From a bacterium (GTDB taxonomy: Bacteria; CAYTYR01; UBA6262): a stretch of DNA of 51,998 nt. The position numbers were made by a program, and so were the translations under genes. Below the pieces are notes generated by a model. That model did no database searches. It was given only the letters and a program-made list of their open reading frames with translations, and was not told the origin of the DNA. Location of the stretch: positions 1 to 51,998 of the forward strand of contig JAQTPL010000010.1 in the NCBI GenBank assembly GCA_028712895.1, read 5' to 3'. Of this stretch, positions 28,659-44,221 are shown piece by piece (the stretch's first letter is position 1; each line of letters opens with the position of its first letter).

Positions 28659-28687
28659 TTGACAAGTTTAGATAGAAGTATTATAAT
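28659..28687 (+). promoter_or_regulatory. Consensus promoter for the Fur-family gene
   Basis: TTGACA at 28659-28664, 17 bases, then TATAAT at 28682-28687: an exact sigma-70-type consensus. The Fur-box-like site begins at the next base. Confidence 0.8.
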
Positions 28688-28706
28688 GAAAATGGTTGTC
28701 ATTAAC
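28688..28706. promoter_or_regulatory. Fur-box-like operator 1
   Basis: GAAAATGGTTGTCATTAAC matches the classical 19-base Fur box at 14 of 19 positions by my count. It overlaps the expected transcription start, so binding would block the promoter of the Fur-family gene (autoregulation). Confidence 0.65.
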
Positions 28707-28720
28707 AATAAGGATAATTT

Positions 28721-29194
28721 ATGAGAAACAAGGATTGCCGAGGCCACCTATGGTGGCACGGAAGATTCAGGGGCTGCGGTTATAGAATAACATTGGCCCG
28801 GGAAGCTATCTTAGAAGTATTATCAAGGGCAAACCAGCATCTTAGCGCAGAAGACATCTATATTAAAGTACACCCAATGTATCCCAATATCGGATTGACT
28901 ACAGTTTACCGAACCTTAGATGTATTAGTTGATTTAGGACTTGTTTTTAAGTTTGATTTTGGCGACAAAAGGGCACGCTATGAATTGGCTGAAGGGCCGA
29001 AAGGCGCACACCATCATCACCATTTAATTTGCACAAACTGCAAAAGAGTAATTGATTATACTGATTTTATAGATGAAGAGGTAGAGTTACTCAATCAAAC
29101 GGAGAAAGGACTTAGTAAAAAATACAATTTTATGATCACCAACCATTTGATCCAGTTTTATGGCTTGTGTGATAAATGTAATAATAAGAAGTAA
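28721..29194 (+). CDS. Fur-family metal-responsive repressor
   Basis: This 157-residue dimeric transcription regulator has a winged-helix DNA-binding half (YRITLAREAILEVLSRANQH, with recognition helix region PNIGLTTVYRTLDVLVDLGL) and a metal-sensing half with AHHHHHLICTNCKRVIDY and the C-terminal CDKC pair. CxxC pairs at both places suggest a structural zinc. A short His/Trp/Cys-rich N-terminal segment (CRGHLWWHGRFRGCGYR) is unusual. Fur, PerR and Zur cannot be separated from sequence alone. The Fur-box-like sites next to it and the Fe-S genes downstream favour iron. Confidence 0.9.
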   Translation: MRNKDCRGHLWWHGRFRGCGYRITLAREAILEVLSRANQHLSAEDIYIKVHPMYPNIGLTTVYRTLDVLVDLGLVFKFDFGDKRARYELAEGPKGAHHHHHLICTNCKRVIDYTDFIDEEVELLNQTEKGLSKKYNFMITNHLIQFYGLCDKCNNKK

Positions 29195-29220
29195 CCACTA
29201 TATTTTTTTTGTATTTAAAT

Positions 29221-29239
29221 GGAAATGATTATCAATAAC
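29221..29239. promoter_or_regulatory. Fur-box-like operator 2
   Basis: GGAAATGATTATCAATAAC also matches the classical Fur box at 14 of 19 positions, with the central ATGATTATCA core. It stands 18 bases before the first gene of the Fe-S island and would place the island under the Fur-family repressor. Confidence 0.65.
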
Positions 29240-29256
29240 AAAAAGGGAGGTGCGTT

Positions 29257-29784: not shown

Positions 29785-29788
29785 AAGC

Positions 29789-29826
29789 AGGTGAGGATAC
29801 TGGTTTTTTGCTTAGTATCCTCACCT
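29789..29826 (+). terminator. Perfect 13-bp hairpin after the DUF5320 gene
   Basis: AGGTGAGGATACT (29789-29801) pairs exactly with 29814-29826 around a T-rich 12-base loop. No T run follows, so partial termination or mRNA stabilisation between the first gene and the rest of the island is more likely than full termination. Confidence 0.6.
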
Positions 29827-29851
29827 ATATTAACTAATTTGGAGGTTAATT

Positions 29852-30250
29852 TTGAAAATTGCTATTTCAACTGATGGTGAATTTGTGTCTGCTCATTTTG
29901 GCAGATGTCCATCCTTTACTCTTATTGATATTGAAGATGGCAAGGTAACTAAGAAAACGACAGTTGCTAATCCCGGTCATCAGCCAGGTGCTATTCCGCA
30001 GTTTTTACATCAACAAGGGGTTAATTGTATTGTCGCTGGCGGGATGGGGATGCGGGCAGTGTCATTTTTTGAAGAATATGGCATTAAGACAATTGTCGGG
30101 GTCAGCGGGAAAATTGATGAAGTAATTGAGCAACTGATCAAAGGAGTTTTAAAAGGCGGGGAGAGCCTGTGTAAGCCTGGTGGTGGTAAAGGTTATGGTT
30201 TGGACAAGACTGAGTGTGATCATCCAAACAAAGAAGAGTGCGATCATTAA
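29852..30250 (+). CDS. NifX/NifB-C-type cofactor-binding domain protein
   Basis: This 132-residue protein is of the dinitrogenase iron-molybdenum cofactor-binding fold. MKIAISTDGEFVSAHFGRCP is the characteristic start, with the His-Phe-Gly-Arg-Cys motif thought to hold metal clusters. VNCIVAGGMGMRAVSFFEE follows. The C-terminal tail is Cys/His-rich (CDHPNKEECDH), unusual for the family and possibly metal-binding. The start is TTG with GGAGG 7 bases upstream. Such stand-alone proteins occur in many non-diazotrophs and are thought to carry Fe-S or heterometal clusters. Confidence 0.88.
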   Translation: MKIAISTDGEFVSAHFGRCPSFTLIDIEDGKVTKKTTVANPGHQPGAIPQFLHQQGVNCIVAGGMGMRAVSFFEEYGIKTIVGVSGKIDEVIEQLIKGVLKGGESLCKPGGGKGYGLDKTECDHPNKEECDH

Positions 30251-30264
30251 GGAGGTTTTGGATA

Positions 30265-30642
30265 ATGAAAATATGTATAACGGCAGAAGGAAACAACCTG
30301 GATTCTAAGGTGGACCCGCGATTTGGACGTTGCCAATATTTTATTATTGCCGATACCGATACTTTAGAATTTGAAGCTGTTGGGAATCCAAATATAGAAT
30401 CTACAGGTGGCGCAGGTATTCAGTCGGCACAAATAGTCGCGGTTAAGCAGGTTAAAGCTGTGCTTACCGGCAATGTCGGGCCGAATGCTTTTCAAACGTT
30501 ACAGGCCGCTGGGATAGAAATATTCACGGGTGCATCTGGTACGGTCAAAGAGGCAGTTGAGAAATACAAAAAAGGCGAATATATGGCAGTTTCCGGCCCA
30601 AGCGTTAGTTCGAAAGCCGGGATGCCAGGGAAGGTCAAATAA
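30265..30642 (+). CDS. Second NifX/NifB-C-type protein
   Basis: A 125-residue paralogue of the preceding gene. It starts MKICITAEGNNLDSKVDPRF followed by GRCQYFIIAD, so the Asp-Pro-Arg-Phe-Gly-Arg-Cys version of the motif is present rather than the His version. VKAVLTGNVGPNAFQTLQAAG is the typical second half. I chose ATG 30265, which has AAGGAGG upstream. The longer frame from 30238 overlaps the previous gene. The two copies may act as a heteromeric cluster carrier. Confidence 0.88.
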   Translation: MKICITAEGNNLDSKVDPRFGRCQYFIIADTDTLEFEAVGNPNIESTGGAGIQSAQIVAVKQVKAVLTGNVGPNAFQTLQAAGIEIFTGASGTVKEAVEKYKKGEYMAVSGPSVSSKAGMPGKVK

Positions 30643-30654: not shown

Positions 30655-30822
30655 ATGGCAGTTAAGGTCAATAAGAATAAATGCAATGGTTGTGGCAGGT
30701 GTGTGGAAATCTGCCCTGTTAACGCGATAAAAATAGAACAAAACATAGCTGTTATCAGTAATGATTGTATAGAATGTGGAGCTTGTTTAATCGTTTGTCC
30801 AGAAGATGCGATATCAGTTTAA
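30655..30822 (+). CDS. 2[4Fe-4S] ferredoxin
   Basis: A 55-residue gene read directly from the sequence. It encodes two complete clusters: CNGCGRCVEICP (Cys at 10, 13, 16 and 20) and CIECGACLIVCP in the second half. AAGGAG lies before the ATG. It is a low-potential electron carrier and, given its position between NifX-like and Mrp-like genes, a likely reductant for cluster assembly. Confidence 0.92.
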   Translation: MAVKVNKNKCNGCGRCVEICPVNAIKIEQNIAVISNDCIECGACLIVCPEDAISV

Positions 30823-30874: not shown

Positions 30875-31081
30875 ATGCCTTTAAGAGATGGAACTGGTCC
30901 CTTCTGGGGGAAAGGCCCTAGGACAGGGAACAAAAAGGGAAAGTGTGGTTCGGCGACAGGGCCATCTTTGACTGGTGGTAATAAAACTAGCAGTTTTATC
31001 GCTATAGTAGGAGTTCTGGCAACTTTAATCGAGGCGATTGCAAAATTATTTTTATCAAAGGAAGAAAAAAGGGAAAAATGA
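30875..31081 (+). CDS. Small DUF5320-like protein with membrane helix
   Basis: This 68-residue protein opens MPLRDGTGPFWGKGPRTGNK, the same GTGPxGxGPxTG pattern as the DUF5320 protein at 29257, then has one hydrophobic helix (SFIAIVGVLATLIEAIAKLF) and a charged tail. ATG 30875 has GAGGTGAGG upstream. The pattern plus a membrane anchor suggests a membrane-tethered member of the family. Function is unknown. Confidence 0.75.
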   Translation: MPLRDGTGPFWGKGPRTGNKKGKCGSATGPSLTGGNKTSSFIAIVGVLATLIEAIAKLFLSKEEKREK

Positions 31082-31100: not shown

Positions 31101-31325
31101 ATGCCCAGAGGAGATGGGACTGGACCTTTAGGCCAAGGTCCAGGCAGTGGTGGAGGTTTTGGCAGAGGAGGCGGCCGGGGCCGTATGGGTGGAAATCGTG
31201 CGGGAGCAGGGCCAGGAGGTAATTGTGTTTGCCCTTCTTGCGGTACCAAGGTTACACACTTGGCAGGCACACCTTGCGCATCTATGAATTGCCCTAAATG
31301 TGGGATTCGAATGGTTAGAGAGTAA
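31101..31325 (+). CDS. Small DUF5320-like zinc-ribbon protein
   Basis: This 74-residue protein starts MPRGDGTGPLGQGPGSGGGF and continues Gly/Arg-rich, then ends in a zinc ribbon, CPSCGTKVTHLAGTPC followed by CPKCG. The Gly-rich head matches the DUF5320 start, while the tail is a four- to five-Cys metal site. GGAGG lies 10 bases before ATG 31101. A third variant of the same head domain within 2 kb suggests the head has a specific partner in this island. Confidence 0.78.
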   Translation: MPRGDGTGPLGQGPGSGGGFGRGGGRGRMGGNRAGAGPGGNCVCPSCGTKVTHLAGTPCASMNCPKCGIRMVRE

Positions 31326-31422: not shown

Positions 31423-31983
31423 GTGAACTTTTATCGAAAGTTCGGTTACGATTTAGAAAAAGAAAGAGATTTTATCCTTGATAAATCCTTGCCTATTTCT
31501 GGGGAAATCCTGGAAATTGGAACCGGTAAGGGACATTTTGCTCTTGCCTTGGCCAAGCGCGGTTTTAGCTTTACTAGTATAGATATATCCGCAGAGGAGC
31601 AGCAAATTGCCAAGCTGAATGTACAGTATTTTGGTCTAGAAAAGCAGGTTGCTTTCAGAATTGAGAATGCGGAATGTTTGAGTTTGTCGGACCAAAGTAT
31701 TGATGCCATATTTTCTATTAATTTATTTCATCACCTTGAAAAGCCATTGGCGGTTTTAAATGAAATAATCCGTTTATTGCGGCCGGCCGGGAAGGTAGTC
31801 CTAAGTGATTTTAGCGCTAAAGGGTTTGAGATCATTAATAGGTGTCATACGCATGAAGGAAGAAAACACGATTATTTTAAAAACTATTTAAACGAGGCAA
31901 AGGATTACTTTGTTAATAAAGACTTTAATATTAAGGAATTTCAGAGTGAAGTTCAAGAAGTGATTATTGCTGAGCATATTTAA
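31423..31983 (+). CDS. Class I SAM-dependent methyltransferase
   Basis: A SAM-binding Rossmann domain is visible: motif I EILEIGTGKGHFALALAKRG, an acidic Asp at the end of strand 2 (TSIDIS) and IDAIFSINLFHHLEKP. The substrate is unknown. The coordinates give the first GTG, but the reading frame is open further upstream. AAGGAG at 31368-31373 is well placed for a CTG at 31378, which would add 15 sensible residues (LDKKILENHKIYLER). A CTG start is therefore likely. It lies between the zinc-ribbon gene and the first MinD-type ATPase. Confidence 0.78.
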   Translation: MNFYRKFGYDLEKERDFILDKSLPISGEILEIGTGKGHFALALAKRGFSFTSIDISAEEQQIAKLNVQYFGLEKQVAFRIENAECLSLSDQSIDAIFSINLFHHLEKPLAVLNEIIRLLRPAGKVVLSDFSAKGFEIINRCHTHEGRKHDYFKNYLNEAKDYFVNKDFNIKEFQSEVQEVIIAEHI

Positions 31984-32005
31984 CCTGGGGTTAAGGATAA
32001 CACAG

Positions 32006-32863
32006 ATGATTATTTCAGTAGCGAGTGGTAAGGGTGGGACAGGGAAAACAACGGTTGCGGTTAATCTGGCTATGTCTATTGAGCAGGCACAGCTTCTTGA
32101 TTGTGATGTGGAAGAACCAAACGCGCATATTTTTCTTAAACCGGAAATAACCAGGCAACATGAAGCGTATATTCCTGTCCCGGAAATTGACGCTGCTAAA
32201 TGCAATTATTGCGGCAAGTGCGCCACAGTTTGTGTTTATAATGCCATAGCTATACTTCCTGGGCAAGATGGGAAAAAAGGTACTACCTTGATTTTCCCGC
32301 ACCTATGCCATGGCTGTGGAGCCTGCAGTACTTTATGTCCTAAAAATGCGATAAAAGAAGTAAATAGGACGATTGGTATAGTGGAAATTGGCACCTGTGG
32401 CAAGATGGAATTTGTGCACGGGAAATTGAATATAGGCGAGGCGATGTCTCCACCACTAATCCGGCAGGTGAAAGAACACCTGAATTCTGATAAAACTGTA
32501 ATTATTGACGCTCCTCCAGGCACTTCTTGCCCGGTAATCTCCTCAATCCAGGGTAGTGATTATACCATCCTGGTTACTGAACCTACGCCGTTTGGTCTGA
32601 ACGACCTGGTATTAGCAGTAGAAGTATTAAAAAAACTAAAAATTCCTTTCGGGGTAGTGATTAATCGGTCAGACCTGGGTAATGACAAAACTGATAAATA
32701 TTGTCAAAAAGAAAACATTCCTGTATTAATGAAAATACCGTTCAAAAAAGAGATCGCCATGGCGTATTCACAGGGGAAACTTGTAATCGAGGCCTTTCCT
32801 GAATACAAGGAATTGTTTAAAATCCTTTACCAGACCATAAAATATGCAAAAAATGATAAGTAA
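32006..32863 (+). CDS. MinD-family ATPase with inserted 2[4Fe-4S] ferredoxin domain (copy 1)
   Basis: This 285-residue P-loop protein has the deviant Walker A SGKGGTGKTT, the Asp-rich switch LLDCDVEEPN and IIDAPPGTSCPV. A ferredoxin domain is inserted after residue 60, with Cys at 66, 69, 72, 76 and 101, 104, 107, 111. These nucleotide-binding proteins are relatives of Mrp/NBP35 and usually come in pairs next to NifX-like genes in anaerobes. They probably use ATP to load or move Fe-S or other clusters. The start at ATG 32006 fits the family N-terminus. A second copy is at 35758. Confidence 0.92.
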   Translation: MIISVASGKGGTGKTTVAVNLAMSIEQAQLLDCDVEEPNAHIFLKPEITRQHEAYIPVPEIDAAKCNYCGKCATVCVYNAIAILPGQDGKKGTTLIFPHLCHGCGACSTLCPKNAIKEVNRTIGIVEIGTCGKMEFVHGKLNIGEAMSPPLIRQVKEHLNSDKTVIIDAPPGTSCPVISSIQGSDYTILVTEPTPFGLNDLVLAVEVLKKLKIPFGVVINRSDLGNDKTDKYCQKENIPVLMKIPFKKEIAMAYSQGKLVIEAFPEYKELFKILYQTIKYAKNDK

Positions 32864-33275
32864 TTTTCTGAAAGAGCGGAATTTTGCTATAGTCGGTTCA
32901 TTTAAAAATGAAACCAAGGTGGCTTACAGGATTTTTAATAATTTAATAACCAGAGGCTACAAAGTATATCCTGTCAATCCAACAGCAAGGAAAGTAGCCG
33001 GGAAGCCTTGTTATAAGAATATCAGTGAAATTCCTTTTAAAATAGATGTTGTAAATATTGTTACTCCTCCTTCTGTTACCGCTAATATTGTAAAGGAATG
33101 CCGGCAAAAAGGTATAAACAAGGTATGGCTTCAGCCTGGAGCTGAAAACCAGGAGATAATAGAATATTGCCATAATAATAACATAACCGTTATCCATACG
33201 GTTTGCGTCATGTTAGAAACATTAAAAGAAGAAAAGCTATTCACAAGAAGTCATTTAAAAGAAACAAGAAAGTAA
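32844..33275 (+). CDS. CoA-binding domain protein
   Basis: This 143-residue protein has the CoA-binding Rossmann fold of the succinyl-CoA-synthetase-like YccU family. FAIVGSFKNETKVAYRIFNN is the nucleotide loop, YKVYPVNPTARKVAGKPCY the second strand, and KVWLQPGAENQEIIEYC the typical third block. It has no catalytic partner domain. Family members bind CoA and may sense or sequester it. It overlaps the end of the ATPase gene by 20 bases, so translation is coupled. ATG 32853 is an alternative start. Confidence 0.85.
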   Translation: MQKMISNFLKERNFAIVGSFKNETKVAYRIFNNLITRGYKVYPVNPTARKVAGKPCYKNISEIPFKIDVVNIVTPPSVTANIVKECRQKGINKVWLQPGAENQEIIEYCHNNNITVIHTVCVMLETLKEEKLFTRSHLKETRK

Positions 33276-33279: not shown

Positions 33280-33975
33280 ATGAAAATAAAGGGTTTTCTT
33301 GAAAGCTCAATGGTGGATTGGGAAGGCCGTATCAGCGCGGTTATATTTATTTCCGGCTGTAACTTTTCCTGCCCATTTTGCCATAACGCAGATCTGGTGA
33401 AAGAAAACAGCGCTTTGCCGGAAATACCGCGGGAACAAATCATATCCACTCTGCGTAAAAAGAGGAATTGGCTGGATGGAGTAGTAATAACCGGCGGGGA
33501 ACCATGCATGTTCCCTGACTTAATCGGCCTGATCAAGGAATTGAGAGAAATAGGTTACCCGATAAAATTGGATACAAACGGTTCTTATCCGCAATTGCTG
33601 GGAGAACTGCTGGCAAACAAGCTGGTTGATTATGTAGCTATGGATGTAAAAGCTCCATTGAATGATATTTATCAGAAGATCACAGCTAGTAGTATCAATA
33701 CGGAAACAATCCGTCAGAGCATTGGACTTATTTTGTCTTTAGCGCCGGCGTATGAATTTCGCACTACTTTTGTCCCGTCGTTTCTGAATAAGGAAGCGAT
33801 AATGGAAATAGCGGCTGTTTTAGAGGGCAGCCGCAAATATTGTATTCAGCAGTTTAATCCGAAAAATGCTATGGACCCGTTGCTCCGGGATATTAAACCT
33901 TATAATTCCGGATATCTTCGTGAAACCCTTGAAGTTTGTCAGAAGCTGATCCCGAACGCCAAACTGCGGGATTAA
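33280..33975 (+). CDS. NrdG/PflA-like radical-SAM activating enzyme
   Basis: This 231-residue radical-SAM protein has the cluster motif GCNFSCPFCHNADLV (Cys 27, 31 and 34), the SAM contact TGGEPCMFPDL and LDTNGSYPQLL. It aligns with anaerobic ribonucleotide reductase or glycyl-radical-enzyme activases of the short, single-cluster type. No glycyl radical enzyme gene is present in the window, so it either acts elsewhere on the chromosome or has a role in the island. The start follows the previous stop by 4 bases. Confidence 0.87.
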   Translation: MKIKGFLESSMVDWEGRISAVIFISGCNFSCPFCHNADLVKENSALPEIPREQIISTLRKKRNWLDGVVITGGEPCMFPDLIGLIKELREIGYPIKLDTNGSYPQLLGELLANKLVDYVAMDVKAPLNDIYQKITASSINTETIRQSIGLILSLAPAYEFRTTFVPSFLNKEAIMEIAAVLEGSRKYCIQQFNPKNAMDPLLRDIKPYNSGYLRETLEVCQKLIPNAKLRD

Positions 33976-34040
33976 AAGTAGGCATCTTGCTTTTAATTAT
34001 TGTGTTATGAAGAAATAAAACAATGAGAGGAGATAAAGCT

Positions 34041-35390
34041 ATGCGTAATAAAACTGAAATACTGGTTGTGGGTGCCGGTCCGGCAGGGATGGTTTGCGCC
34101 ATTACTGCCAGAAGATATTATCCGGATAAGAAAATATTGGTGCTCAAAAATATCGCTAACGGCTGTATACCCTGTGGTATCCCCTATATGTTTTCAAGCT
34201 TGCAGTCTCCTCAGGACAATATTTTGGGTATGGATGCCTTGATCAAGAATAATATTGAAGTAGTGCCGGGAGAAGCTGCTAAAATCGATCGCGGCAGCAA
34301 GCTGGTGACCACCACCAGCTCCGATGAATATCAGTATGAGAAATTAGTATTAGCTACAGGTTCTACCCCGGTTATCCCGAATATCCCGGGTATAGATATA
34401 AAAGGCGTTTATCCGGTTTATAAAGATTTAGATTACCTCAAATCCTGTATAGAAGAAATTAAAAGATCAAAAAATGTTTTAATAATCGGCGGCGGATTTA
34501 TCGGTATCGAATTTGCTGATGAGATCTCTAAAATCCCTGGATTGACGGTACACCTGGTAGAAGTTCTGCCGGCTTTATTGGCCAATTCTTTTGATCGGGA
34601 TTTTTCTTTATTGGTTGAGGGAAAGCTTAAGGCTGAAGGGGTTAATACTATTTTAAATACCAAAGTTACTGAAATTTTAGGAAAAGAAAAAGTTGAAGGG
34701 GTACGTTTTGATAATGGTAATGAATTAAAGGTAGACAGTATTATTTTAGGCATCGGGGCGGTTCCCAATACTGAACTGGCAAAAACCGCCGGCCTGGACT
34801 TGGGCAAAGGACGTGGAATCTGGGCAGATGAATATATGCGTACTTCTGATTTTGACATATTTGCCGTTGGTGATTGCGCTGGCAAGAGGGATTTCTATAC
34901 TCGCAGGGATACGGCAGTTATGCTTGCTTCTACGGCTACTGCTGAAGCCAGGGTGGCCGGGGCTAATTTGTATCAATTAAAAATAATTCGGGAAAACAAA
35001 GGGACAATAGCTATTTATTCCACGTATATTGATGGATTAGTATTAGGCTCTGCCGGTCTGACTGAAGCCAGCGCGAAAAAAGAAGGGTTTGAAATTATTG
35101 TGGGCACTACAGAAGGGGTGGATAAGCATCCTAAGGGATTACCAGGAGCTAATAAGATAAAAGTAAAGCTTATCTTTGCCCGGCAATCAGGCATATTAAT
35201 GGGTGGCCAGGTGCTTGGTGGCATGTCTGCCGGTGAGATGATCAATATTATCGGGATGGCTATACAACAACGGGTTTCAATCAATGAATTGGAAACCTTG
35301 CAGATGGCGACTCACCCTTATTTAACCAGTGCGCCAACCATGTATCCCCTGGTTCTGGCGGCACAGGATGCGATGGCGAAAATTGCTTAG
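34041..35390 (+). CDS. FAD-dependent pyridine nucleotide-disulfide oxidoreductase (NADH oxidase / CoA-disulfide reductase family)
   Basis: This 449-residue flavoenzyme has the FAD motif VVGAGPAG (10-16), a single redox Cys in the block NGCIPCGIPYMF (Cys45), the second Rossmann motif IIGGGFIGIEFADEI and the FAD-contact FAVGDCAGKRD. Members reduce CoA disulfide, polysulfide, oxygen or peroxide. The CoA-binding gene two positions upstream makes a CoA-disulfide or persulfide substrate attractive. ATG 34041 has GAGAGGAG upstream and fits the family start. The longer frame from 34023 is rejected. Confidence 0.88.
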   Translation: MRNKTEILVVGAGPAGMVCAITARRYYPDKKILVLKNIANGCIPCGIPYMFSSLQSPQDNILGMDALIKNNIEVVPGEAAKIDRGSKLVTTTSSDEYQYEKLVLATGSTPVIPNIPGIDIKGVYPVYKDLDYLKSCIEEIKRSKNVLIIGGGFIGIEFADEISKIPGLTVHLVEVLPALLANSFDRDFSLLVEGKLKAEGVNTILNTKVTEILGKEKVEGVRFDNGNELKVDSIILGIGAVPNTELAKTAGLDLGKGRGIWADEYMRTSDFDIFAVGDCAGKRDFYTRRDTAVMLASTATAEARVAGANLYQLKIIRENKGTIAIYSTYIDGLVLGSAGLTEASAKKEGFEIIVGTTEGVDKHPKGLPGANKIKVKLIFARQSGILMGGQVLGGMSAGEMINIIGMAIQQRVSINELETLQMATHPYLTSAPTMYPLVLAAQDAMAKIA

Positions 35391-35407: not shown

Positions 35408-35740
35408 ATGCTGAAAGTTGGAATAATAAGATGCCAGCAAACTGAAGACATGTGCCCCGGCAATACCGATTTCAAGGTGGCGGCTGAAGGTAAAATGGCT
35501 TTTGAGAACAGTGGTCCGGTTGAGATCGTGGGCTTTGTTTCCTGTGGCGGTTGTCCTGGTAAAAGGGCCGTGGCCAGAGCTAAAATGATGGTCGAGCGGG
35601 GCGCAGAAGCTATTGTCATCGGTTCTTGTATCAGTAAGGGGAATCCCATCGGATATCCTTGTCCTTATTTGCAAAAAATGAAGGAATGTATCATTAAAAA
35701 AATAGGCCCGGATATTAAAATAATCGATTGGACGCATTAA
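35408..35740 (+). CDS. CGGC-domain protein
   Basis: This 110-residue protein has the block VGFVSCGGCPGKRAVARAK that defines the CGGC domain, plus Cys in RCQQTEDMCPG, SCISKG and PCPYLQKM. The conserved Cys and His pattern suggests metal or cluster binding, but no activity has been shown. GGAGG lies upstream. It is tucked between the flavoenzyme and the second MinD-type ATPase. Confidence 0.85.
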   Translation: MLKVGIIRCQQTEDMCPGNTDFKVAAEGKMAFENSGPVEIVGFVSCGGCPGKRAVARAKMMVERGAEAIVIGSCISKGNPIGYPCPYLQKMKECIIKKIGPDIKIIDWTH

Positions 35741-36612: not shown

Positions 36613-37602
36613 ATGGCTGATAAAAATAAAAGGGATATTCATATAATCAGATATCATTCTTCTTATGTGACTATTTCTCATGGAAAAGTGATTAATATTA
36701 CAGACCCTGTACTGAGGTTTTGTCCTTTAGCTAATCATTTATATAAAGAATTTAAGAATATTAAAAATAACGATCTGGAAGCCGTGAGAAAAGCAATAAA
36801 AAGCGTAATTGAATCAAAAATAAGAGATTACGGTTTTTTTACTGAAAAAAGAAAAATTATTCATCGCGATATTTCCATACCATATGGCGCTTCCGAAATG
36901 CTGATGTTCGCGCTGAGAAAGAAGCATATTGAGGCCGCAGTTGTGGTTTGCGATGGGGCAGGCACGGTTATTACCTCCAACCCGGCGCTAGTTCAGGGAA
37001 TAGGCGCCCGCATGAACAGCCTGCTGCTGACTACACCTATCCCGGCGGTTATTAGGAAAATTGAAATTGCGGGGGGCCAGGTAATATTTAAAAATGCGCG
37101 TATTGATCAATGCCAGGGAGTGAAAAAGGCTATCGCCGCGGGATATAAAACTATTGCTGTGACGATCAATACGAATGACTGTCAAAAGCTGAAAAAACTA
37201 AGCTTGTTAAAAAAGAAGTATAACGTGAATATAATCTCCTTAGTAGTATGCACTACCGGAATAACCAAGGATAAAATTGCCATGATACGCAATTACGCTG
37301 ATTTAGTGTGGAGTTGCGCTTCTCTTGATGTTCGCCGGATGATCGGGCCCGTGGCAATGATGCAGCTTTCTCAGGTGATCCCGGTATTTGTTTTAACGTC
37401 TCGGGGAGTTGATTTTGTTTCCGCATATGCCGTAGAAAAAAGACTCATTAATAAGCTGGATTTTAACAAACAATATTTGGTTTCACATGAGTATGGCGGG
37501 CAAGGAATTAATTTAGGTGGATCTAAAGCCTATATCAGGGAATCCCGGTTGCCGGTTATTAACGGCAGAGCGCCGGGTTTTAAAGACTGGGAAAATGGAT
37601 AA
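36613..37602 (+). CDS. DUF2099 protein (methanogenesis marker 8 family)
   Basis: This 329-residue protein carries the family landmarks I associate with DUF2099: VLRFCPL near the N-terminus, PYGASEMLMFAL, VVVCDGAGTVITSNPALVQG followed by IGARMNSLLLTTPIP, and IEIAGGQVIFKNARIDQ. The family was named from its near-universal presence in methanogens and is also found in some anaerobic bacteria. Its biochemical role is not known to me. Here it sits between a cluster-carrying ATPase and a NifU-like scaffold, which suggests a part in metallocofactor or thiol chemistry. The assignment rests on recalled motifs. Confidence 0.7.
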   Translation: MADKNKRDIHIIRYHSSYVTISHGKVINITDPVLRFCPLANHLYKEFKNIKNNDLEAVRKAIKSVIESKIRDYGFFTEKRKIIHRDISIPYGASEMLMFALRKKHIEAAVVVCDGAGTVITSNPALVQGIGARMNSLLLTTPIPAVIRKIEIAGGQVIFKNARIDQCQGVKKAIAAGYKTIAVTINTNDCQKLKKLSLLKKKYNVNIISLVVCTTGITKDKIAMIRNYADLVWSCASLDVRRMIGPVAMMQLSQVIPVFVLTSRGVDFVSAYAVEKRLINKLDFNKQYLVSHEYGGQGINLGGSKAYIRESRLPVINGRAPGFKDWENG

Positions 37603-37957
37603 AAATAGACTACATAATGATGATTATTATTTTGGCAGAATGAATGATCCGACAGGCTCAGCCTTTTTAGAAGGGCCGTGCGGAGATTCAATGGAATTTC
37701 ACCTGATTATCGAAGATGACAGGATAATAGAAGTAAAGTTCTATACTGAAGGATGTGCGGCCACGAAATCGTGCGGAGCTATCACCGCGGCTCTGGTTAA
37801 AGGCAAGACCATTAAAAAAGCATTAAGTATTTCGCCAAGCGAAGTAATAGAACGCATTAAAGACCTGCCTGATGACCATCAGCATTGTTCAATTCTATCA
37901 GTCAGTACCCTTTATCGAGCTATTGCTGATTATCTGTTAAGAAAGGCATTAGGATGA
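37595..37957 (+). CDS. NifU/IscU-like Fe-S scaffold protein
   Basis: This 120-residue scaffold protein has three expected Cys sites: GPCGDSMEFHLII (Cys with the following Asp), FYTEGCAATKSCGAITAAL and DDHQHCSILSVSTLYRA. This matches the N-terminal domain of NifU/IscU, on which [2Fe-2S] and [4Fe-4S] clusters are built. The ATG at 37595 overlaps the DUF2099 stop. The longer frame inside DUF2099 is rejected. No cysteine desulfurase is encoded nearby, so sulfur must come from elsewhere. Confidence 0.88.
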   Translation: MDKNRLHNDDYYFGRMNDPTGSAFLEGPCGDSMEFHLIIEDDRIIEVKFYTEGCAATKSCGAITAALVKGKTIKKALSISPSEVIERIKDLPDDHQHCSILSVSTLYRAIADYLLRKALG

Positions 37958-38481
37958 AAGTCGATTTACATTTTTGGTTTATGACCATATTATTTATGTT
38001 GCGTGACTTGCTTTTCCCCCGCGAAAATATTCTCCAGGAGACGGGAATCAAGCCTGGCTACAATGTGCTTGACTACGGCTGCGGGCCGGGTAGCTACATT
38101 CTGCCTCTTGCAAACCTAGTTGGTGAAGCAGGAAAAGTTTACGCGCAAGACATTAATAGCAGAGCGGTACAAGCGGTCCAGAAGATAGTAGCAGATAATA
38201 AATTGACAAACGTCATAACGATCCAATCGGATTGTAAAACAGGTCTGCCAGATGCTGCCATAGATGCGGTTTTATTATACGATGTTTTTCACGGACTCTC
38301 TAATCCTGATAGCGTGTTGCCGGAACTATATCGGATCCTCAAGATAAACGGGATTCTGTCTTTCACTGATCACCATACAAAGGAAAAGGAAATACTTGAC
38401 ACCATGAAAAGGACAAAATTGTTTGGATTATTGCGTAAAGGCAAAAATACATATACATTCATAAAGCTAATAAATACCTAA
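37954..38481 (+). CDS. Class I SAM-dependent methyltransferase, short
   Basis: This 175-residue protein has motif I NVLDYGCGPGSYILPLAN and the downstream blocks VYAQDINSRAVQAV and AVLLYDVFHGLSNPDSVLPE. The N-terminal segment LHFWFMTILFMLRDLLFPR is hydrophobic and amphipathic, as in the arsenite- or UbiE-like small methyltransferases of anaerobes. Its ATG overlaps the NifU-like stop (ATGA). The substrate is unknown. Confidence 0.82.
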   Translation: MKVDLHFWFMTILFMLRDLLFPRENILQETGIKPGYNVLDYGCGPGSYILPLANLVGEAGKVYAQDINSRAVQAVQKIVADNKLTNVITIQSDCKTGLPDAAIDAVLLYDVFHGLSNPDSVLPELYRILKINGILSFTDHHTKEKEILDTMKRTKLFGLLRKGKNTYTFIKLINT

Positions 38482-38495
38482 AAGGAGCAATGGAG

Positions 38496-39314
38496 ATGGA
38501 ACATTCAGCAGAAGCGGGGCAGGTTTCGAATCAGGAAAAAAGCATTAAAGACAAAATGTCACGGATCAAACATACCTTTATTGTCATGAGCGGCAAAGGA
38601 GGCGTAGGCAAAACAACAGTTGCGGTAAACCTGGCCTTTGCGCTTTCTCTTTCCGGTAAAAAAGTGGGCATTCTAGATATTGATATCCATGGCCCTAATA
38701 TTGCCAAAATGCTGGGCATTGAAAAACAAACCATTTGTGATTCTGAATTTGGCATTCAGGCAGTCAGTGTGAACGAGAACCTTAAGGCTGTCAGCCTAGC
38801 TCTGGTCGGATATCATCCTGACCAACCGATTATTTGGCGTGGGCCAAGAAAAACAGCTGCCATCAGGCAGTTTTTAGGAGAAGTGAACTGGGGAGAGCTT
38901 GACTATCTGATCATAGATTCACCTCCCGGCACAGGAGACGAACCATTAAGCGTTTGCCAGCTTATTCCTAATGTAAAGGGTATTATTATAGTAACTACGC
39001 CGCAGGATGTGGCTATCCTTGATGCGCGGAAGAGCGTACTCTTTGCCAATGAAATAAAAATTCCGGTAGTTGGCCTAATTGAAAATATGAGCGGACTCAC
39101 ATGCCCTCACTGCCACGCACAGATCAATATTTTTAAAAAAGGCGGGGGAGAAAAAGCGTCTCAGGAATTAAAGATCCCGTTTTTAGGAAGCGTTCCCTTC
39201 CAGCCGGAATTTGTTGAATTCGCCGACCAGGGCACTCCTTTTATGTCTTTCCAGGAAAAATCAAAATCCGCTGAGATATTCATGGAGATAGTCAAAAAAA
39301 TTGAGGTTTTTTAA
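38496..39314 (+). CDS. Mrp/ApbC/NBP35 Fe-S cluster carrier ATPase
   Basis: A 272-residue Mrp-type P-loop ATPase that binds and transfers [4Fe-4S] clusters. It shows MSGKGGVGKTTVAVNLAFAL, LDIDIHGPNIAKMLG, the family motif IWRGPRKTAAIRQFL, LIIDSPPGTGDEPLSV and the bridging-cluster pair CPHCHAQI. I prefer ATG 38496, which is 9 bases from the AGGAG. The ATG at 38490 lies almost on it. This is the third MinD-superfamily ATPase within 7 kb, and the only one of the canonical Mrp kind. Confidence 0.93.
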   Translation: MEHSAEAGQVSNQEKSIKDKMSRIKHTFIVMSGKGGVGKTTVAVNLAFALSLSGKKVGILDIDIHGPNIAKMLGIEKQTICDSEFGIQAVSVNENLKAVSLALVGYHPDQPIIWRGPRKTAAIRQFLGEVNWGELDYLIIDSPPGTGDEPLSVCQLIPNVKGIIIVTTPQDVAILDARKSVLFANEIKIPVVGLIENMSGLTCPHCHAQINIFKKGGGEKASQELKIPFLGSVPFQPEFVEFADQGTPFMSFQEKSKSAEIFMEIVKKIEVF

Positions 39315-39315: not shown

Positions 39316-40821
39316 ATGGGATTGCACATACCCCAGGATATTGATATTGATCTTTGGCGTGAGCGTCAGATCGTACCGAAAGAAAGAGATCATTATTTAA
39401 AAAACGGACGGGATTTTATCGAAAATGAATCTTTCCATAAAAAGTTGCAAAATAATCGCCCCATTGATAAGCAAGAGATTAGAGATATTTTGTCGAAGTC
39501 GTTAGCGATACAAACCCTTACCCTTGATGAGACTGCTGTTTTGCTCAATGTGGATGACCCGCAATTATGGCAGGAAATGAGAGAGGCTGGAGCTAAAGTA
39601 AAGCAAAAGGTCTATGATAACCGCATTGTCACTTTTGCTCCTTTCTATACAGGTAATTTGTGTGTGAATGATTGTCTTTATTGTGGGTTTCGGGCAGGGA
39701 ACTCTGGCGCCTTACGTCGTCTTCTGACGCTGGATGAAGTACGGCGCGAAGTAGAAGTATTAGCCGGTAAAATCGGGCATAAAAGACTTATCGCTGTATA
39801 CGGCGAACACCCGCTCTCAGATGCTCGCTATATTGTTGATACTCTACGTACCATATATGCGGTAAAAATAAAAACCCCGCACGGCTATGCTAATATACGC
39901 CGAGTCAATGTTAATGCTGCGCCGCAGCGGATCGCGGATTTGCAGCTTTTATATGCTGCCGGTATAGGCACATACCAGGTTTTTCAGGAAACATATCATC
40001 ATGCGACCTATGCCAAAGTGCATCCGCCTAAGACGATTAAAGCTGATTACCGCTGGCGGTTATATGCAATGCATAGAGCTTTTGAAGCGGGAATAGATGA
40101 TGTAGGGATTGGCGTGCTTTTTGGGTTATATGATTGGCGCTTTGAAGTACTGGGGCTGGTAGCGCACGCGCGGGAACTGGAAGAATATTTTGCCATAGGG
40201 CCGCATACTGTTTCTTTTCCTCGTCTTGAGCCAGCATTAAATGCTCCCTATGTTGAAGATACAGGCTATCGAGTACTGGACGCAGAATTGATAAAGATTA
40301 TCACTGTATTACGATTGGCAATACCATACACTGGGATGATCATAACTGCCAGGGAAAATGCGGCTATGCGCCGTACTGTAATTCCGCTTGGTTGTACCCA
40401 GACCGATGCTTCATCCCGTATTGGCATAGGAGCCTATGCAGATGATCAGGAAAGTCAAAAGTCGAAAAGGCAGCAATTTTTATTGGGGGACACGCGGAGT
40501 TTGGATGAAGTAGTCAGGGAATTTGCCCAACAGGGTTTAATAACTTCATTCTGTACCGCCGGCTACCGTTGCGGGCGCACTGGAAAGAAAATAATGGATT
40601 TATTAAAAAGCGGACAAGAAGGGCAATTTTGCAAGCTAAATGCGATCCTAACCTTTCGTGAATGGTTAAATGATTTTGCCAGTGCGGAAACGCGTGAAGC
40701 TGGTGAAAGAGTGATTAAACAGGAAATGAATGAGGTGTCAATACAATATCCCCAGTCGTATAATGCTCTGGTGAATTACTATGAGCGCATTAATACTGGA
40801 GAAAGGGATCTTTATTTTTAA
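39316..40821 (+). CDS. HydG-like radical-SAM tyrosine lyase, divergent auxiliary-cluster site
   Basis: HydG cleaves tyrosine and builds the Fe-CO-CN unit of [FeFe] hydrogenase. This 501-residue protein aligns along the whole HydG length: the radical-SAM motif NLCVNDCLYCGFRAGN (Cys 116, 120 and 123), the barrel with YGEHPLSDARYIVDT and IGIGAYADDQ, and the C-terminal domain FCTAGYRCGRTG. In true HydG that domain holds an auxiliary cluster through CX2CX22C. Here the positions are Cys413, Gly416 and Cys439, so the middle Cys is lost and a new Cys appears at 419. No hydrogenase, HydE or HydF is nearby. It may be a HydG paralogue with a changed product, or a degraded maturase. The start follows GAGG and the TAATATG junction. 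Confidence 0.85.
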   Translation: MGLHIPQDIDIDLWRERQIVPKERDHYLKNGRDFIENESFHKKLQNNRPIDKQEIRDILSKSLAIQTLTLDETAVLLNVDDPQLWQEMREAGAKVKQKVYDNRIVTFAPFYTGNLCVNDCLYCGFRAGNSGALRRLLTLDEVRREVEVLAGKIGHKRLIAVYGEHPLSDARYIVDTLRTIYAVKIKTPHGYANIRRVNVNAAPQRIADLQLLYAAGIGTYQVFQETYHHATYAKVHPPKTIKADYRWRLYAMHRAFEAGIDDVGIGVLFGLYDWRFEVLGLVAHARELEEYFAIGPHTVSFPRLEPALNAPYVEDTGYRVLDAELIKIITVLRLAIPYTGMIITARENAAMRRTVIPLGCTQTDASSRIGIGAYADDQESQKSKRQQFLLGDTRSLDEVVREFAQQGLITSFCTAGYRCGRTGKKIMDLLKSGQEGQFCKLNAILTFREWLNDFASAETREAGERVIKQEMNEVSIQYPQSYNALVNYYERINTGERDLYF

Positions 40822-40827: not shown

Positions 40828-41622
40828 ATGAATAAAAAGTATAAATACATTTATGGCCCGGTGGCTTCATGGAGGCTGGGCAGTTCGTTAGGCATAGATC
40901 TGCTTTCGCAGGAAGAAAAGATCTGCGATTTTAACTGCATATATTGCCAGTTGGGGCCAACGCTGTGCTACACAACAAAAAGGCAATATTTTATTCTGGT
41001 TAAAGAAATCATCAAGGAGATCGAATCACTACCCACGGTTCATATTGACTATATTACCTTTGCCGGAAGCGGAGAACCGACTTTGGCCAAAAATCTGGGG
41101 CAGGCGATAAGAGCGGTAAAAGCGCTTTCTAAAACACCGGTGGCAGTTCTAACTAACTCCAGCTTATTACATCTTAATAAGGTCAGGCAAGAATTATTAC
41201 CAGCGGATTATGTGTCAGTCAAACTGGACGCCGGTTCGCCTGATTCCTTGCAAGCGATTAATGATCCGGCTAAAGATGTCTGTTTTGAAAAATTGTTATC
41301 CGGCATAATTAAATTCAGAAAGCAATATCAAGGGTGGCTGGCGTTGCAAATAATGTTTGTCAATAAAAACATGCAAGATGTTGATAAAATGATCAACCTG
41401 ATCAAGCAGATCAATCCTGACGAAGTCCAGATAAATACGCCATTAAGAGTTTGCGCAGTAAAGCCGTTATCTAAAGAAAGTATCAGGAAAATAAGAAATA
41501 CGATTGCCGCCGCATGTAAAAAAGTTGCTATAGTCTCGGTATATGACAAAAATAAATCTCAGGCTATTTATTCAATAAGCGACGCGGAAACATTAAAAAG
41601 AAGGGGAAAGGTCATTAAATAA
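40828..41622 (+). CDS. COG0731-type radical-SAM protein
   Basis: This 264-residue protein begins YIYGPVASWRLGSSLGIDLL and has the cluster motif KICDFNCIYCQLG (Cys 33, 37 and 40), then FAGSGEPTLAKNLGQAI. This is the COG0731 group, distantly related to the archaeal wyosine enzyme TYW1 but lacking its tRNA context. Bacterial members are common in anaerobes and uncharacterised. It starts 6 bases after the HydG-like gene. Two adjacent radical-SAM genes suggest consecutive steps. Confidence 0.88.
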   Translation: MNKKYKYIYGPVASWRLGSSLGIDLLSQEEKICDFNCIYCQLGPTLCYTTKRQYFILVKEIIKEIESLPTVHIDYITFAGSGEPTLAKNLGQAIRAVKALSKTPVAVLTNSSLLHLNKVRQELLPADYVSVKLDAGSPDSLQAINDPAKDVCFEKLLSGIIKFRKQYQGWLALQIMFVNKNMQDVDKMINLIKQINPDEVQINTPLRVCAVKPLSKESIRKIRNTIAAACKKVAIVSVYDKNKSQAIYSISDAETLKRRGKVIK

Positions 41623-41623
41623 A

Positions 41624-41974
41624 ATGATGATAGAAATTATAAGAGCTAAAATTCATAATGCGACAATTACCAAGAAAGAGTTAAATTATGCCGGGAGTAT
41701 TGGGATAGATAAAGTACTTTTGTCAAAAAGCGGTATTTTGGAAAATGAAAAAGTTCAGGTTGTCAATGCTAATAATGGCAGCCGCTTAGAGACATATGTC
41801 ATCGCGGAAAAGGGAAATAGCGGAACAATTGCTCTGTACGGCCCGGCTGCGCGGCAGGCAGAAGTAGGTGATAAGATTTGCATTATGTCCTATGCTCTGG
41901 CGCAGGAAAATGAAGCAAAGCCAATCAAGCCGCAGATTATTATCGTGGATAATAGTAATAAGGTGAATAAATAA
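41624..41974 (+). CDS. panD: PanD paralogue (aspartate 1-decarboxylase-like)
   Basis: A second pyruvoyl decarboxylase-like protein of 116 residues. Numbered from ATG 41624 it keeps Lys9, His11, Tyr22, the cleavage site Gly24-Ser25 (YAGS), Arg54, Thr57 and Tyr58. Asn72 of the active site is Tyr and Ala74 is Pro (LYGPAAR). It should therefore still self-process, while substrate handling may differ from the copy at 14449. It lies between a radical-SAM gene and a DUF89 phosphatase gene, whose start follows its stop without any gap. A decarboxylase for another amino acid is possible. Confidence 0.88.
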   Translation: MMIEIIRAKIHNATITKKELNYAGSIGIDKVLLSKSGILENEKVQVVNANNGSRLETYVIAEKGNSGTIALYGPAARQAEVGDKICIMSYALAQENEAKPIKPQIIIVDNSNKVNK

Positions 41975-42874
41975 ATGAATACTTATATAGATTGTATACC
42001 TTGCTTTTTCAGGCAATTGATTGAAGGCGCGCGGATAATAGGGGTAAAGCCTAAAAGGCAAAAGCAGATCATAGATGAATTTGCCCGGATCATCCAAAAA
42101 TCTACGTTAAGATCAAGCCCGACAGAAATCATCAGCCACGGCTATCATTTATTAACCAAAGCAAGCACTACCGGTGATCCCTATAAAGAAATAAAACAAA
42201 AAAGCAACAATCTGGCTTTAGGCCTTTTTGCTGAGATAAAACACCGGGTAAAGCGGGCCAATGACCGACTGTTGACTGCTGTAGAATTAGCCATTGCCGG
42301 TAATATTATTGATTTTGGCATTAAAAACAATCTAAATGTTCATGAGGAATTAAAAAAAATCATGGCCGCAGAGAATAAAAGTATTCACAATAAATCCATA
42401 TTCCACTATGCCCAATTCAAGCAAGACCTAAAAAAAGCAAAAAGGATACTATATTTGGGTGATAATGCGGGAGAAATAGTATTTGACCGGGTATTAATAG
42501 AAGAAATAAAGAGAATGTATCCGCAAAAGAGTATTTATTATGCAGTAAAAGAAAAGCCTATTATAAACGATGCGCTACTTGCAGATGCTAGGGTTTGCGG
42601 GATTGATAAAATGGTGAGTGTGATTTCTAATGGTACATCTGCACCTGGGACCGTGCTTTCTTTATGTTCAAAAGGATTTAAGAGGATTTACAAGAACGCG
42701 GATATAATAATCAGTAAGGGTCAGGGAAATTTTGAGTCTTTATCGCAGGAAAAAAGGCCTATCTTTTTTTTATTTATGGTTAAATGCCCGGTCGTCGCCA
42801 AGGAGACAGGCTGTAAAATAGGGGATACGATATTATTCTATAATCAGCGTTACATGAAGGGATCTGGGAAATGA
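41975..42874 (+). CDS. DUF89 damage-control phosphatase-like protein
   Basis: This 299-residue protein opens with the Cys pair CIPCFFRQL typical of stand-alone bacterial and archaeal DUF89 members and has the metal site YLGDNAGEIVFDRVLIEEI and ISKGQGNFESL. DUF89 enzymes are metal-dependent phosphatases. Some are fused to or sit beside CoA biosynthesis enzymes and remove damaged phosphopantetheine. The direct abutment to a PanD paralogue fits a role near pantothenate or CoA metabolism, but this is inference. Confidence 0.88.
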   Translation: MNTYIDCIPCFFRQLIEGARIIGVKPKRQKQIIDEFARIIQKSTLRSSPTEIISHGYHLLTKASTTGDPYKEIKQKSNNLALGLFAEIKHRVKRANDRLLTAVELAIAGNIIDFGIKNNLNVHEELKKIMAAENKSIHNKSIFHYAQFKQDLKKAKRILYLGDNAGEIVFDRVLIEEIKRMYPQKSIYYAVKEKPIINDALLADARVCGIDKMVSVISNGTSAPGTVLSLCSKGFKRIYKNADIIISKGQGNFESLSQEKRPIFFLFMVKCPVVAKETGCKIGDTILFYNQRYMKGSGK

Positions 42875-43584
42875 AGATATTAAACCTGTTTGATAAAGAC
42901 AAGGTCGATAAAAAGCTCCATATAGGATGGGGTCTTTCGATATTAGTTAATGACAAAATATTATTTGATACCGGAGAAAAAGGGAGTTGGCTCTTGGCCA
43001 ATATGCAAAGGCTCAAAATTGATATCGCTGCTATAGAAACCGTAGTAATTTCACATGATCATTGGGATCACACGGGAGGGCTAGGAGCTATCTTAAAGTC
43101 AAAGAAGGGAATAAAGGTATATGGCTGTCCAAACTTCAGCAAAGAATTCAAAGTGCAAGTCAATAAATTGCATGGCCAGTTGGTCGAGGCGGACAGGTTT
43201 GTAACTGTGGCTAAAGACATTTTTATTACCGGAGAAATACCCGGGGCCTATAAAGGTAAATATATGCCAGAACAAGCCTTGGTGTTGAAAACAAAAAAAG
43301 GGATTACTATCATTACCGGGTGTGCCCATCCCGGGATCTTAAAAATAGTAGAGAAAGTGCGGGCGAAATATCCGGCAGAACCGATTTATCTTGTGCTGGG
43401 TGGATTCCATTTAATGGAATCAGATGAGCGGGCAATTGAAATTGTAGTGGCAAAATTTAAAAAGATGGGCATAATAAAAGCCGGCCCTACGCATTGTTCA
43501 GGAGAAACAGCAGAAAGTATCTTCAAAAAACAATATGGCCGTAAATTTGTCAGGATCAAAACCGGCCAAACCATAGAGGTGTAG
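42871..43584 (+). CDS. Metallo-beta-lactamase-fold hydrolase (MptE/DHPS-like)
   Basis: This 237-residue protein has the metal motif SHDHWDHTGGLGA, TGCAHPGI and PTHCSGE, in the order seen in the group annotated as 7,8-dihydropterin-6-methyl-4-aminobenzene-phosphate synthase-related hydrolases. Both metal sites appear complete. This subgroup is frequent in anaerobes next to Mrp and NifX genes, so the pterin-synthase name should be read as a family label, not a function. The ATG overlaps the DUF89 stop (ATGA). Confidence 0.87.
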   Translation: MKILNLFDKDKVDKKLHIGWGLSILVNDKILFDTGEKGSWLLANMQRLKIDIAAIETVVISHDHWDHTGGLGAILKSKKGIKVYGCPNFSKEFKVQVNKLHGQLVEADRFVTVAKDIFITGEIPGAYKGKYMPEQALVLKTKKGITIITGCAHPGILKIVEKVRAKYPAEPIYLVLGGFHLMESDERAIEIVVAKFKKMGIIKAGPTHCSGETAESIFKKQYGRKFVRIKTGQTIEV

Positions 43585-43585
43585 C

Positions 43586-44221
43586 TTGCCCAGGCTTATT
43601 TTTAAAGAATTGAAGAAACATATTCCTTTCACGATATTCGGTACTATTACTGGCATGGGGATTATGGCTTTTTCCTTAAAGATTACAGCTGATAGGGCCT
43701 ATAATATTTTTTACATACTACATCCCTTGCATGTGTTTTTAAGCGCGTTAGTCACGGCTTCGATGTATAAACTCCATACCTGTTCCCAGGTAGGACTTAA
43801 TTGTCTCCGGGGTAAATGTAATTTCTGGTTTTTGACTATAATCGGTTACGTGGGTTCGGTAGGGATAGCTACGATCAGTGATTCCCTGATCCCATACATA
43901 GCTGAATATTTATTAAATATGCCTAACCGGGGTGTCCATCTAGGCTTTATTGAAAAATGGTGGCTGGTCAATCCTTTAGCCATAGCCGGGATACTGGTAG
44001 CTTATTATAAACCGGCTACGAAATTTCCCCACAGTCTCCATGTACTATTCAGCACCTGGGCGTCTTTATTTCATATTATTATGGCCCAGGCAGTGGGATT
44101 TGGTTGGTTTTCTTATATTATTGTCTTTGTATTCTTATTCCTGGCAGTCTGGCTGCCTTGCTGTGTCAGTGACATAGTTTTCCCCTTGTTATTTGTAAAA
44201 AATAGGCAGCAGCATTATTAA
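43586..44221 (+). CDS. Integral membrane protein with His/Cys motifs, unknown function
   Basis: This 211-residue protein has about five to six membrane helices. Polar residues inside or near helices are striking: IFYILHPLHVFLSALVTASM (two His), KLHTCSQVGLNCLRGKC (three Cys in the loop) and the C-terminal LPCCVSDIVFPLLF. A His- and Cys-lined membrane protein at the end of a metal-cofactor island suggests metal transport or sensing. I do not recognise a family. The start is TTG with GAGGTG upstream, and the gene is the last of the unbroken run. Confidence 0.7.
   Translation: MPRLIFKELKKHIPFTIFGTITGMGIMAFSLKITADRAYNIFYILHPLHVFLSALVTASMYKLHTCSQVGLNCLRGKCNFWFLTIIGYVGSVGIATISDSLIPYIAEYLLNMPNRGVHLGFIEKWWLVNPLAIAGILVAYYKPATKFPHSLHVLFSTWASLFHIIMAQAVGFGWFSYIIVFVFLFLAVWLPCCVSDIVFPLLFVKNRQQHY

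Follow-up and report, generated by a model that had tools for sequence, protein, structure and literature searches.

The window, a 51,998-nucleotide stretch of DNA, is contig C7 of the 1.93-Mb, 94% complete metagenome-assembled genome of an uncultured anaerobic bacterium (G000; G- and L-numbers denote the genomes and loci that were compared). It contains an island of 24 genes, all on the forward strand between positions 28721 and 44221, with none on the opposite strand. With a probability of about 0.5, the island serves the Fur-regulated storage of iron and sulfur and their delivery as Fe–S clusters in strict anaerobes, organisms in which the storage and movement of the two elements are poorly known. 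The best-supported description is that it works like the orange-protein (ORP) operons of Desulfovibrio and the IssA protein of Pyrococcus furiosus taken together. It is a strict member of neither, because the two-domain MrpORP, a sigma-54 promoter, and the one-chain layout of IssA were tested for and not found.

Comparison of gene neighborhoods indicates that the island is a real unit, as the first-pass annotation had assumed, because its order recurs in Omnitrophota, in a sister genome from the UBA6262-type genus, and in one further lineage, with 524 of the 530 island genes in all compared loci being co-directional. The core reads Fur-DUF5320-NifX-NifX-(MTase)-MinD-MinD-(MBL), where MTase is a methyltransferase, and the variable members are DUF2099, NifU, Mrp, the CoA-disulfide-reductase-like flavoprotein (CoADR), DUF89, radical S-adenosylmethionine (SAM) protein 3, and HydG. 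A screen of 384 Omnitrophota genomes for DUF2099 yielded 26 matches, 24 of them at full length, and the neighborhoods of the matching genes have the gene order of the window island. The order Fur-DUF5320-NifXa-NifXb-(MTase)-MinD1-MinD2 is kept in most loci. In the sister genome (G001, same genus as G000; G002 and G003 are further close relatives), the island core occupies the same genomic place as in G000, after NADK and RecN. It retains Fur, DUF5320, NifXa, NifXb, DUF5320c, one methyltransferase, both MinD-ferredoxin ATPases, DUF2099, Mrp, radical-SAM protein 3, MBL, and the membrane protein. Missing from it are the stand-alone ferredoxin (at its window position), the CoA-binding protein, NrdG2, CoADR, NifU, the second methyltransferase, HydG, PanD, and DUF89, and the CGGC protein is present as a fragment only. 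In the further lineage, G456, the island is present in rearranged form (L114), and in G538 DUF2099 lies at the edge of a 4.9-kb contig (L115) without island genes. Islands lacking DUF2099 are also common: 18 such loci, chosen for strong NifX matches so that their frequencies are not unbiased, include Fur in 16, DUF5320 in 16, MinD1 in 15, MinD2 in 16, and MBL in 13. The joint occurrence of DUF2099 and NifX-like genes, to which the first-pass annotation had pointed, is borne out in Omnitrophota, where 25 of the 26 DUF2099-matching genomes have a NifX-family gene, compared with 145 of the 358 others (Fisher p = 8e-9). Genes for ferritin-like, peroxiredoxin, thioredoxin, FeoB, ZIP, and Rrf2 proteins, named by eye from their sequences, recur near the islands. 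Two distinct DUF2099 islands, L059 and L062, occur in genome G185, one with HydG and the other lacking it.

Judged from sequence comparison across loci, the genes form a single conserved transcription unit that begins with fur; among the genes tested, only fur and DUF5320 are preceded by Fur boxes. Intergenic gaps are mostly shorter than 20 bp or negative, and several genes overlap. The interior of the island contains 53 promoter-like and 13 terminator-like sites, compared with 49 ± 7.8 and 15.9 ± 4.4 in dinucleotide shuffles; neither type is in excess, and the transcript does not appear to be split by internal sites. The one-strand layout of overlapping or abutting genes described in the first-pass annotation holds, with a count of 24 genes and not about 23, and profile searches of the window proteins recovered every family named there in its place. 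Its list lacked the two methyltransferases, the CoA-binding protein, the CoA-disulfide-reductase-like flavoprotein, and a protein with 5–6 transmembrane segments. No -24/-12 match to a sigma-54 promoter within two mismatches was found in positions 28600–28720. The best PDB matches of the regulator are Fur proteins, which are nearer to it than PerR or Zur; NCBIfam equivalog cut-offs are not reached. Fur boxes were scored as matches out of 19 to the consensus GATAATGATAATCATTATC, with a threshold of 13/19 for counting an upstream region. By this measure, a box precedes fur in 75% of 40 loci (7% expected) and DUF5320a in 50% of 36 loci (6% expected), and seven other island genes tested have no excess over expectation. 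Both Fur-box-like sites noticed earlier in the window are present, at 15/19 each, and recur in related loci.

The storage of iron and sulfide would be the task of DUF5320, NifXa, and NifXb, which may hold an iron-sulfide or thioferrate-like deposit as an IssA split over several genes. IssA of P. furiosus is a thioferrate store that combines a NifX-type domain with a tail containing 21% glycine, 20% aromatic, and 10% cationic residues, with an isoelectric point (pI) of 10.7 (PMC5524996). The central region of DUF5320a contains on average 28% glycine, 17% aromatic, 14% arginine plus lysine, and 2% acidic residues, and has a pI of 10.8. Of the DUF5320a proteins, 37 of 38 have a composition of this type, compared with 10 of the 967 other proteins encoded in the same loci. 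In a single example (L132), NifXb is followed in the same chain by a Gly/Arg-rich stretch and a C-terminal end that resembles a coiled coil. From the composition, the gene order, and this one fusion, we infer that DUF5320 and NifX form a split IssA-like store. DUF5320 protein c recurs in 25 of 45 loci. A literature search on DUF5320 and DUF2099 returned only unrelated work.

The two MinD-ferredoxin ATPases, Mrp, NifU, and the ferredoxin would draw on the store in an ATP- and electron-dependent manner and pass clusters to client proteins, a step that is proposed because of ORP and Mrp biochemistry. The motifs of MinD no. 1 are intact in 38 of 38 relatives, and the ferredoxin motifs of MinD no. 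2 are present in 42 of 42; Orp3 and Orp4 each carry two [4Fe-4S] motifs (PMC6345978). The Mrp protein scores 348 bits against the two-domain MrpORP model NF041136 (cut-off 450), covering only residues 1–248. By sequence, MrpORP is split over two genes here, with NifXa corresponding to its Di-Nase half and Mrp to its P-loop half, because the two match complementary halves of the model and neither reaches its cut-off. NifXa-type proteins keep an AHFG(R/Q)C motif and a C-terminal Cys-Asp-His-type motif, and motifs resembling those of NifXa have been proposed to bind a [3Fe-4S] cluster in the Di-Nase domain of MrpORP (PMC6345978). In one data set (PMC10533852), the NifX genes Dde_3197-3199 of Desulfovibrio alaskensis changed in step with feoA and flavodoxin; in Desulfovibrio, Fur is predicted to target FeoAB and flavodoxin (PMC545781). 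This agrees with an iron link of the ORP-type set beyond the lineage of the window.

Reducing power or the protection of thiols may be provided by the CoADR-like flavoprotein, thioredoxin, OsmC, and DUF2099 with its predicted FrhB fold. DUF2099 has so far been, functionally, only a methanogenesis marker (TIGR03275), and no functional assignment for the methanogenesis marker 8 family was found in the literature searched. The TIGR03275 cut-off is passed in 9 of the 26 DUF2099-matching Omnitrophota genomes. That DUF2099 has an FrhB-type fold is well supported by its AlphaFold model, which has a predicted local distance difference test (pLDDT) score of 89.8 and a predicted template modeling (pTM) score of 0.89. 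The first 12 rows of a structure search with the model are all FrhB-family proteins (F420-reducing hydrogenase beta subunit, HCAR, formate dehydrogenase, and Fsr) with Z-scores of 9.9–7.8, and the next row has a Z-score of 5.2. Foldseek alone gave modest E-values, with HCAR and an FrhB-type chain ranked first. At the level of sequence, the FrhB_FdhB_N family PF04422 is listed for 18 of 28 DUF2099 members at E-values of up to 10 (best 1.3e-4), the window protein not being listed; a DUF2099 profile matches a small FrhB set with an E-value of 0.0023 at low probability; and a profile sequence search of the PDB gave no match. The invariant cysteines of DUF2099 are C37, C113, C213, and C235, and the cluster ligands of FrhB are cysteines 104, 134, 192, and 195 (PMC3591093). 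The two sets are not paired in the profile alignment, which has the E-value of 0.0023 and low probability given above. A paper that names subunits of the MCR activation complex makes no mention of Mmp8 (PMC12176620). It is possible, but rather doubtful, that a split IssA-like store of DUF5320 and NifX under Fur control is reduced and mobilized by DUF2099, with its FrhB-type flavin/Fe–S fold, for the MinD-ferredoxin ATPases, Mrp, and NifU. If DUF2099 does mobilize the store, this would be the first function for methanogenesis marker 8, and it would lie in Fe–S supply, not in methanogenesis proper.

Several points weigh against storage and delivery as the role of the island. Classical Fur acts as a repressor when it carries iron, whereas one would expect a store to be made at plentiful iron, as with IssA, which rises with iron and sulfide; a delivery role at iron scarcity is equally compatible. 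A basic composition rich in glycine and aromatic residues is not specific to such stores and could also suit binding to RNA or polyanions. The presence of stored iron or sulfide is something that we infer, and the island contains no cysteine desulfurase. The ORP complex of D. vulgaris has been linked to cell division, not storage (PMC6345978).

The first-pass annotation saw in the island a unit that builds or delivers an unusual Fe–S or Fe-CO/CN-type cofactor for an enzyme encoded elsewhere. The island does share HydG, NifX-type carriers, and ATPases with the maturation pathways of nitrogenase and hydrogenase, but this reading is unlikely. HydG occurs in 3 of the 27 other DUF2099 islands, at differing positions, and is absent from several island genomes. 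According to a tree, it entered islands at least twice, because the HydG of the window and those of three Omnitrophota islands are not one group. Such repeated recruitment hints at a functional link or benefit, for example a supply of clusters to HydG. The C-terminal auxiliary motif of the island HydG is CX5CX19C (FCTAGYRCGRTG..FC; in the clade, SFCTAGYRCGRTG...FC) instead of CX2CX22C, and this displacement should affect the [5Fe-5S] auxiliary cluster. Every island HydG has the displaced motif, as do 21 related HydG proteins of Omnitrophota, and the clade that has it sits in, and appears to serve, hydF-hydG-hydE operons of Omnitrophota (L101, L105, and L111). Among the Omnitrophota sampled, this subclade seems to be the most frequent form of HydG. 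The island cannot be defined by HydG, which is an optional rider, as PanD and DUF89 would also be, and not part of an essential cofactor pathway. Besides the island HydG, the genome of the window encodes a canonical one (511 bits), next to HydE and a [FeFe] hydrogenase of group A6, and contig C29 carries a further A6 [FeFe] hydrogenase; the hydrogenases have separate maturases of their own. The nitrogenase-type family PF00148 does not reach its cut-off in the DUF2099-bearing genomes, and no NifB-type enzyme was seen. The optional and polyphyletic occurrence of HydG in the island led to the rejection of a factory for the H-cluster or another Fe-CO/CN cofactor, and a nitrogenase-like end product was rejected on the PF00148 result. 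Rejected as well was an [FeFe] hydrogenase as a DUF2099-specific client, with HydG over its cut-off in 13 of 24 DUF2099 genomes compared with 17 of 20 NifX-only genomes. What survives of the earlier interpretation is a conserved, iron-controlled Fe–S unit; the Fe-CO/CN cofactor and its end product elsewhere do not, and its second alternative, protection or supply of clusters under changing iron, fits much better. Two related observations are a natural HydE-HydG fusion of 915 residues in one frame, with both models over their cut-offs, in the Omnitrophota genome G139 (L099:172-2916), and a nitrogenase-family gene cluster in a same-genus genome without DUF2099 (G002:C5:3538-9004).

It is improbable that the island, with its NifU, Mrp, and ferredoxin, is the general Fe–S assembly machinery of bacteria without SUF and not a store. 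The SufBD family is absent from G000, its three close relatives (G001–G003), G456, G538, and 20 of the 24 DUF2099-bearing Omnitrophota, and it is present in 14 of 14 control genomes. However, its absence is a lineage trait in the genomes compared and not a mark of the DUF2099 island, because G002 and G003, which have no DUF2099, also lack SufBD. Besides the missing cysteine desulfurase, NifU and Mrp are not found in every island. In the NifX-island genome G325, genes for a full-length NifU-NifS-like pair lie a few genes before the island (L124), so a separate assembly system can exist beside it.

A role in cell division or polarity, as an ORP-type complex, would fit the parts present in the island: paired MinD-ferredoxin ATPases, an ORP-like NifX, and the halves of MrpORP, which is polar in D. 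vulgaris (PMC6345978). However, the islands are without division genes and have iron, sulfur, and redox neighbors instead, and control is by Fur and not by sigma-54, which makes a division role very unlikely. A loose iron and oxidative-stress regulon, in which one Fur-controlled transcript joins genes without a common pathway, would account for accessory genes (PanD, DUF89, PDF, MetK, and TrmO) that vary between loci, but it is hard to reconcile with a core order kept in most of them and is a remote prospect.

The remaining features are listed in Table 1. The membrane protein at the end of the island, which is conserved in 12 other islands, has invariant residues H46, H49, H149, H152, H163, C66, C78, C192, and C193 among 13 aligned proteins and is a possible metal transporter; a PDB fold search with its model (pLDDT 75) gave no match. 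The conserved unit probably extends beyond position 44221 to about 46181, because the genes for OsmC, DnaJ, a methyltransferase, and TrmO recur in related islands. The next strong, near-perfect promoter, at 46231, belongs to a separate unit (46231–50324) encoding a predicted exported protein of 446 residues without a Pfam match, ZnuA, and ABC zinc uptake proteins (ZnuABC). A hairpin between DUF5320a and nifXa is present in some loci, and its sequence is not kept among relatives; long hairpins of unrelated sequence lie at this junction in L062, L072, L074, L116, and L118.

Table 1 Features of the island and its flanks in the window.
Feature	Position	Strand	Evidence
Sigma-70-type promoter, TTGACA-17-TATAAT, perfect -35 and -10	28659-28687	+	12/12 matches
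Fur box 1 (GAAAATGGTTGTCATTAAC), before fur	28688-28706	.	15/19 to GATAATGATAATCATTATC
Fur-family regulator	28721-29194	+	PF01475 109 bits; best PDB match Fur 9ire, E 1e-27
Fur box 2 (GGAAATGATTATCAATAAC), before DUF5320	29221-29239	.	15/19
DUF5320 protein a: basic Gly/Arg/aromatic-rich center, C-terminal coiled-coil-like helix	29257-29784	+	PF17253 113 bits
13-bp perfect hairpin between DUF5320a and nifXa	29788-29825	+	Possible RNA processing or attenuation element
NifXa, stand-alone Di-Nase domain, AHFGRC and CDH motifs	29852-30250	+	PF02579; MrpORP NF041136 residues 265-363, 102 bits
NifXb, orange-protein-like	30265-30642	+	PF02579; best PDB match ORP 2wfb, E 5.8e-23
2x[4Fe-4S] ferredoxin	30655-30822	+	PF00037, two stretches
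DUF5320 protein b, short	30875-31081	+	PF17253 28.8 bits, cut-off 27
DUF5320 protein c, C-terminal CxxC zinc-ribbon-like part	31101-31325	+	PF17253 21 bits, below cut-off
Class I SAM methyltransferase 1, possible upstream start near 31379	31423-31983	+	PF08241; core gene
MinD-type ATPase no. 1, inserted 2x[4Fe-4S] ferredoxin domain (Orp3/Orp4 type)	31997-32863	+	PF10609, PF00037
CoA-binding protein	32844-33275	+	PF13380
Radical-SAM activase-like protein, NrdG2 type	33280-33975	+	TIGR02495 197 bits, cut-off 131
CoA-disulfide-reductase/NADH-oxidase-like flavoprotein	34023-35390	+	PF07992; PDB CoADR and NoxA
CGGC-domain protein	35408-35740	+	PF08821
MinD-type ATPase no. 2 with ferredoxin domain	35758-36609	+	PF01656, PF00037
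DUF2099 / methanogenesis marker 8, predicted FrhB fold	36613-37602	+	TIGR03275 234.8 bits, cut-off 232.7
NifU/IscU-type scaffold, NifU N-domain	37592-37957	+	PF01592 78 bits; below NifU/IscU equivalog cut-offs
Class I SAM methyltransferase 2	37954-38481	+	Window-specific
Mrp/NBP35 Fe–S carrier ATPase, P-loop half of MrpORP only	38490-39314	+	PF10609 318 bits; NF041136 residues 1-248
HydG paralogue, displaced auxiliary-cluster cysteine, optional passenger	39316-40821	+	TIGR03955 432 bits, cut-off 312
Radical-SAM protein, COG0731-like	40828-41622	+	PF04055
Aspartate decarboxylase PanD2	41624-41974	+	TIGR00223 126 bits, cut-off 106; Gly-Ser cleavage site present
DUF89/ARMT1-type damage-control phosphatase	41975-42874	+	PF01937 238 bits
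MBL-fold hydrolase, TM1679-like	42871-43584	+	PDB 7dck E 1e-37, 3h3e
Membrane protein, His/Cys invariant in membrane helices	43586-44221	+	No Pfam match
Probable tail of unit: OsmC, DnaJ, methyltransferase, TrmO	44311-46181	+	

In the literature searched, no earlier report was found that links IssA or the ORP-type MinD/NifX/Mrp set to a bacterial gene unit that is conserved and iron-regulated. The island provides such a link and names candidate partners, DUF5320 with NifXa and NifXb, and the MinD pair with Mrp. Methanogenesis marker 8, whose predicted fold is of the FrhB type, is moreover placed by the island in bacteria not known to be methanogens, which makes the function of the marker directly testable.

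Among known systems, the Desulfovibrio ORP operons (Orp3, Orp4, Orp5, Orp8, and Orp9/MrpORP) share with the island paired MinD ATPases, each with two [4Fe-4S] motifs, an ORP-like (Orp8-like) protein of the NifX family, an Mrp/NBP35 carrier, and a Di-Nase domain. The island differs from them in its split MrpORP, in its Fur boxes and sigma-70-type promoter in place of sigma-54, and in the addition of DUF5320, DUF2099, NifU, MBL, a methyltransferase, and others. Like IssA of P. furiosus, it combines a NifX-type globular domain with a basic region rich in glycine and aromatic residues; however, this region is on a separate neighboring protein, DUF5320, and not in one chain with NifX, and thioferrate binding is putative. 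DUF2099 resembles the FrhB/FdhB family (F420-hydrogenase beta subunit, HCAR, and the N-terminal half of Fsr) in its predicted fold and in the weak PF04422 match of most members, but the four cluster cysteines of FrhB are out of line with its four invariant cysteines in the alignment. The window protein scores over the curated cut-off for archaeal methanogenesis marker protein 8 (TIGR03275), and yet it is encoded in a bacterium. With [FeFe] hydrogenase maturation by HydE, HydF, and HydG, the window island shares one HydG-family gene; by contrast, it contains no HydE, HydF, or HydA, its HydG has an altered auxiliary motif, and most islands are without HydG.

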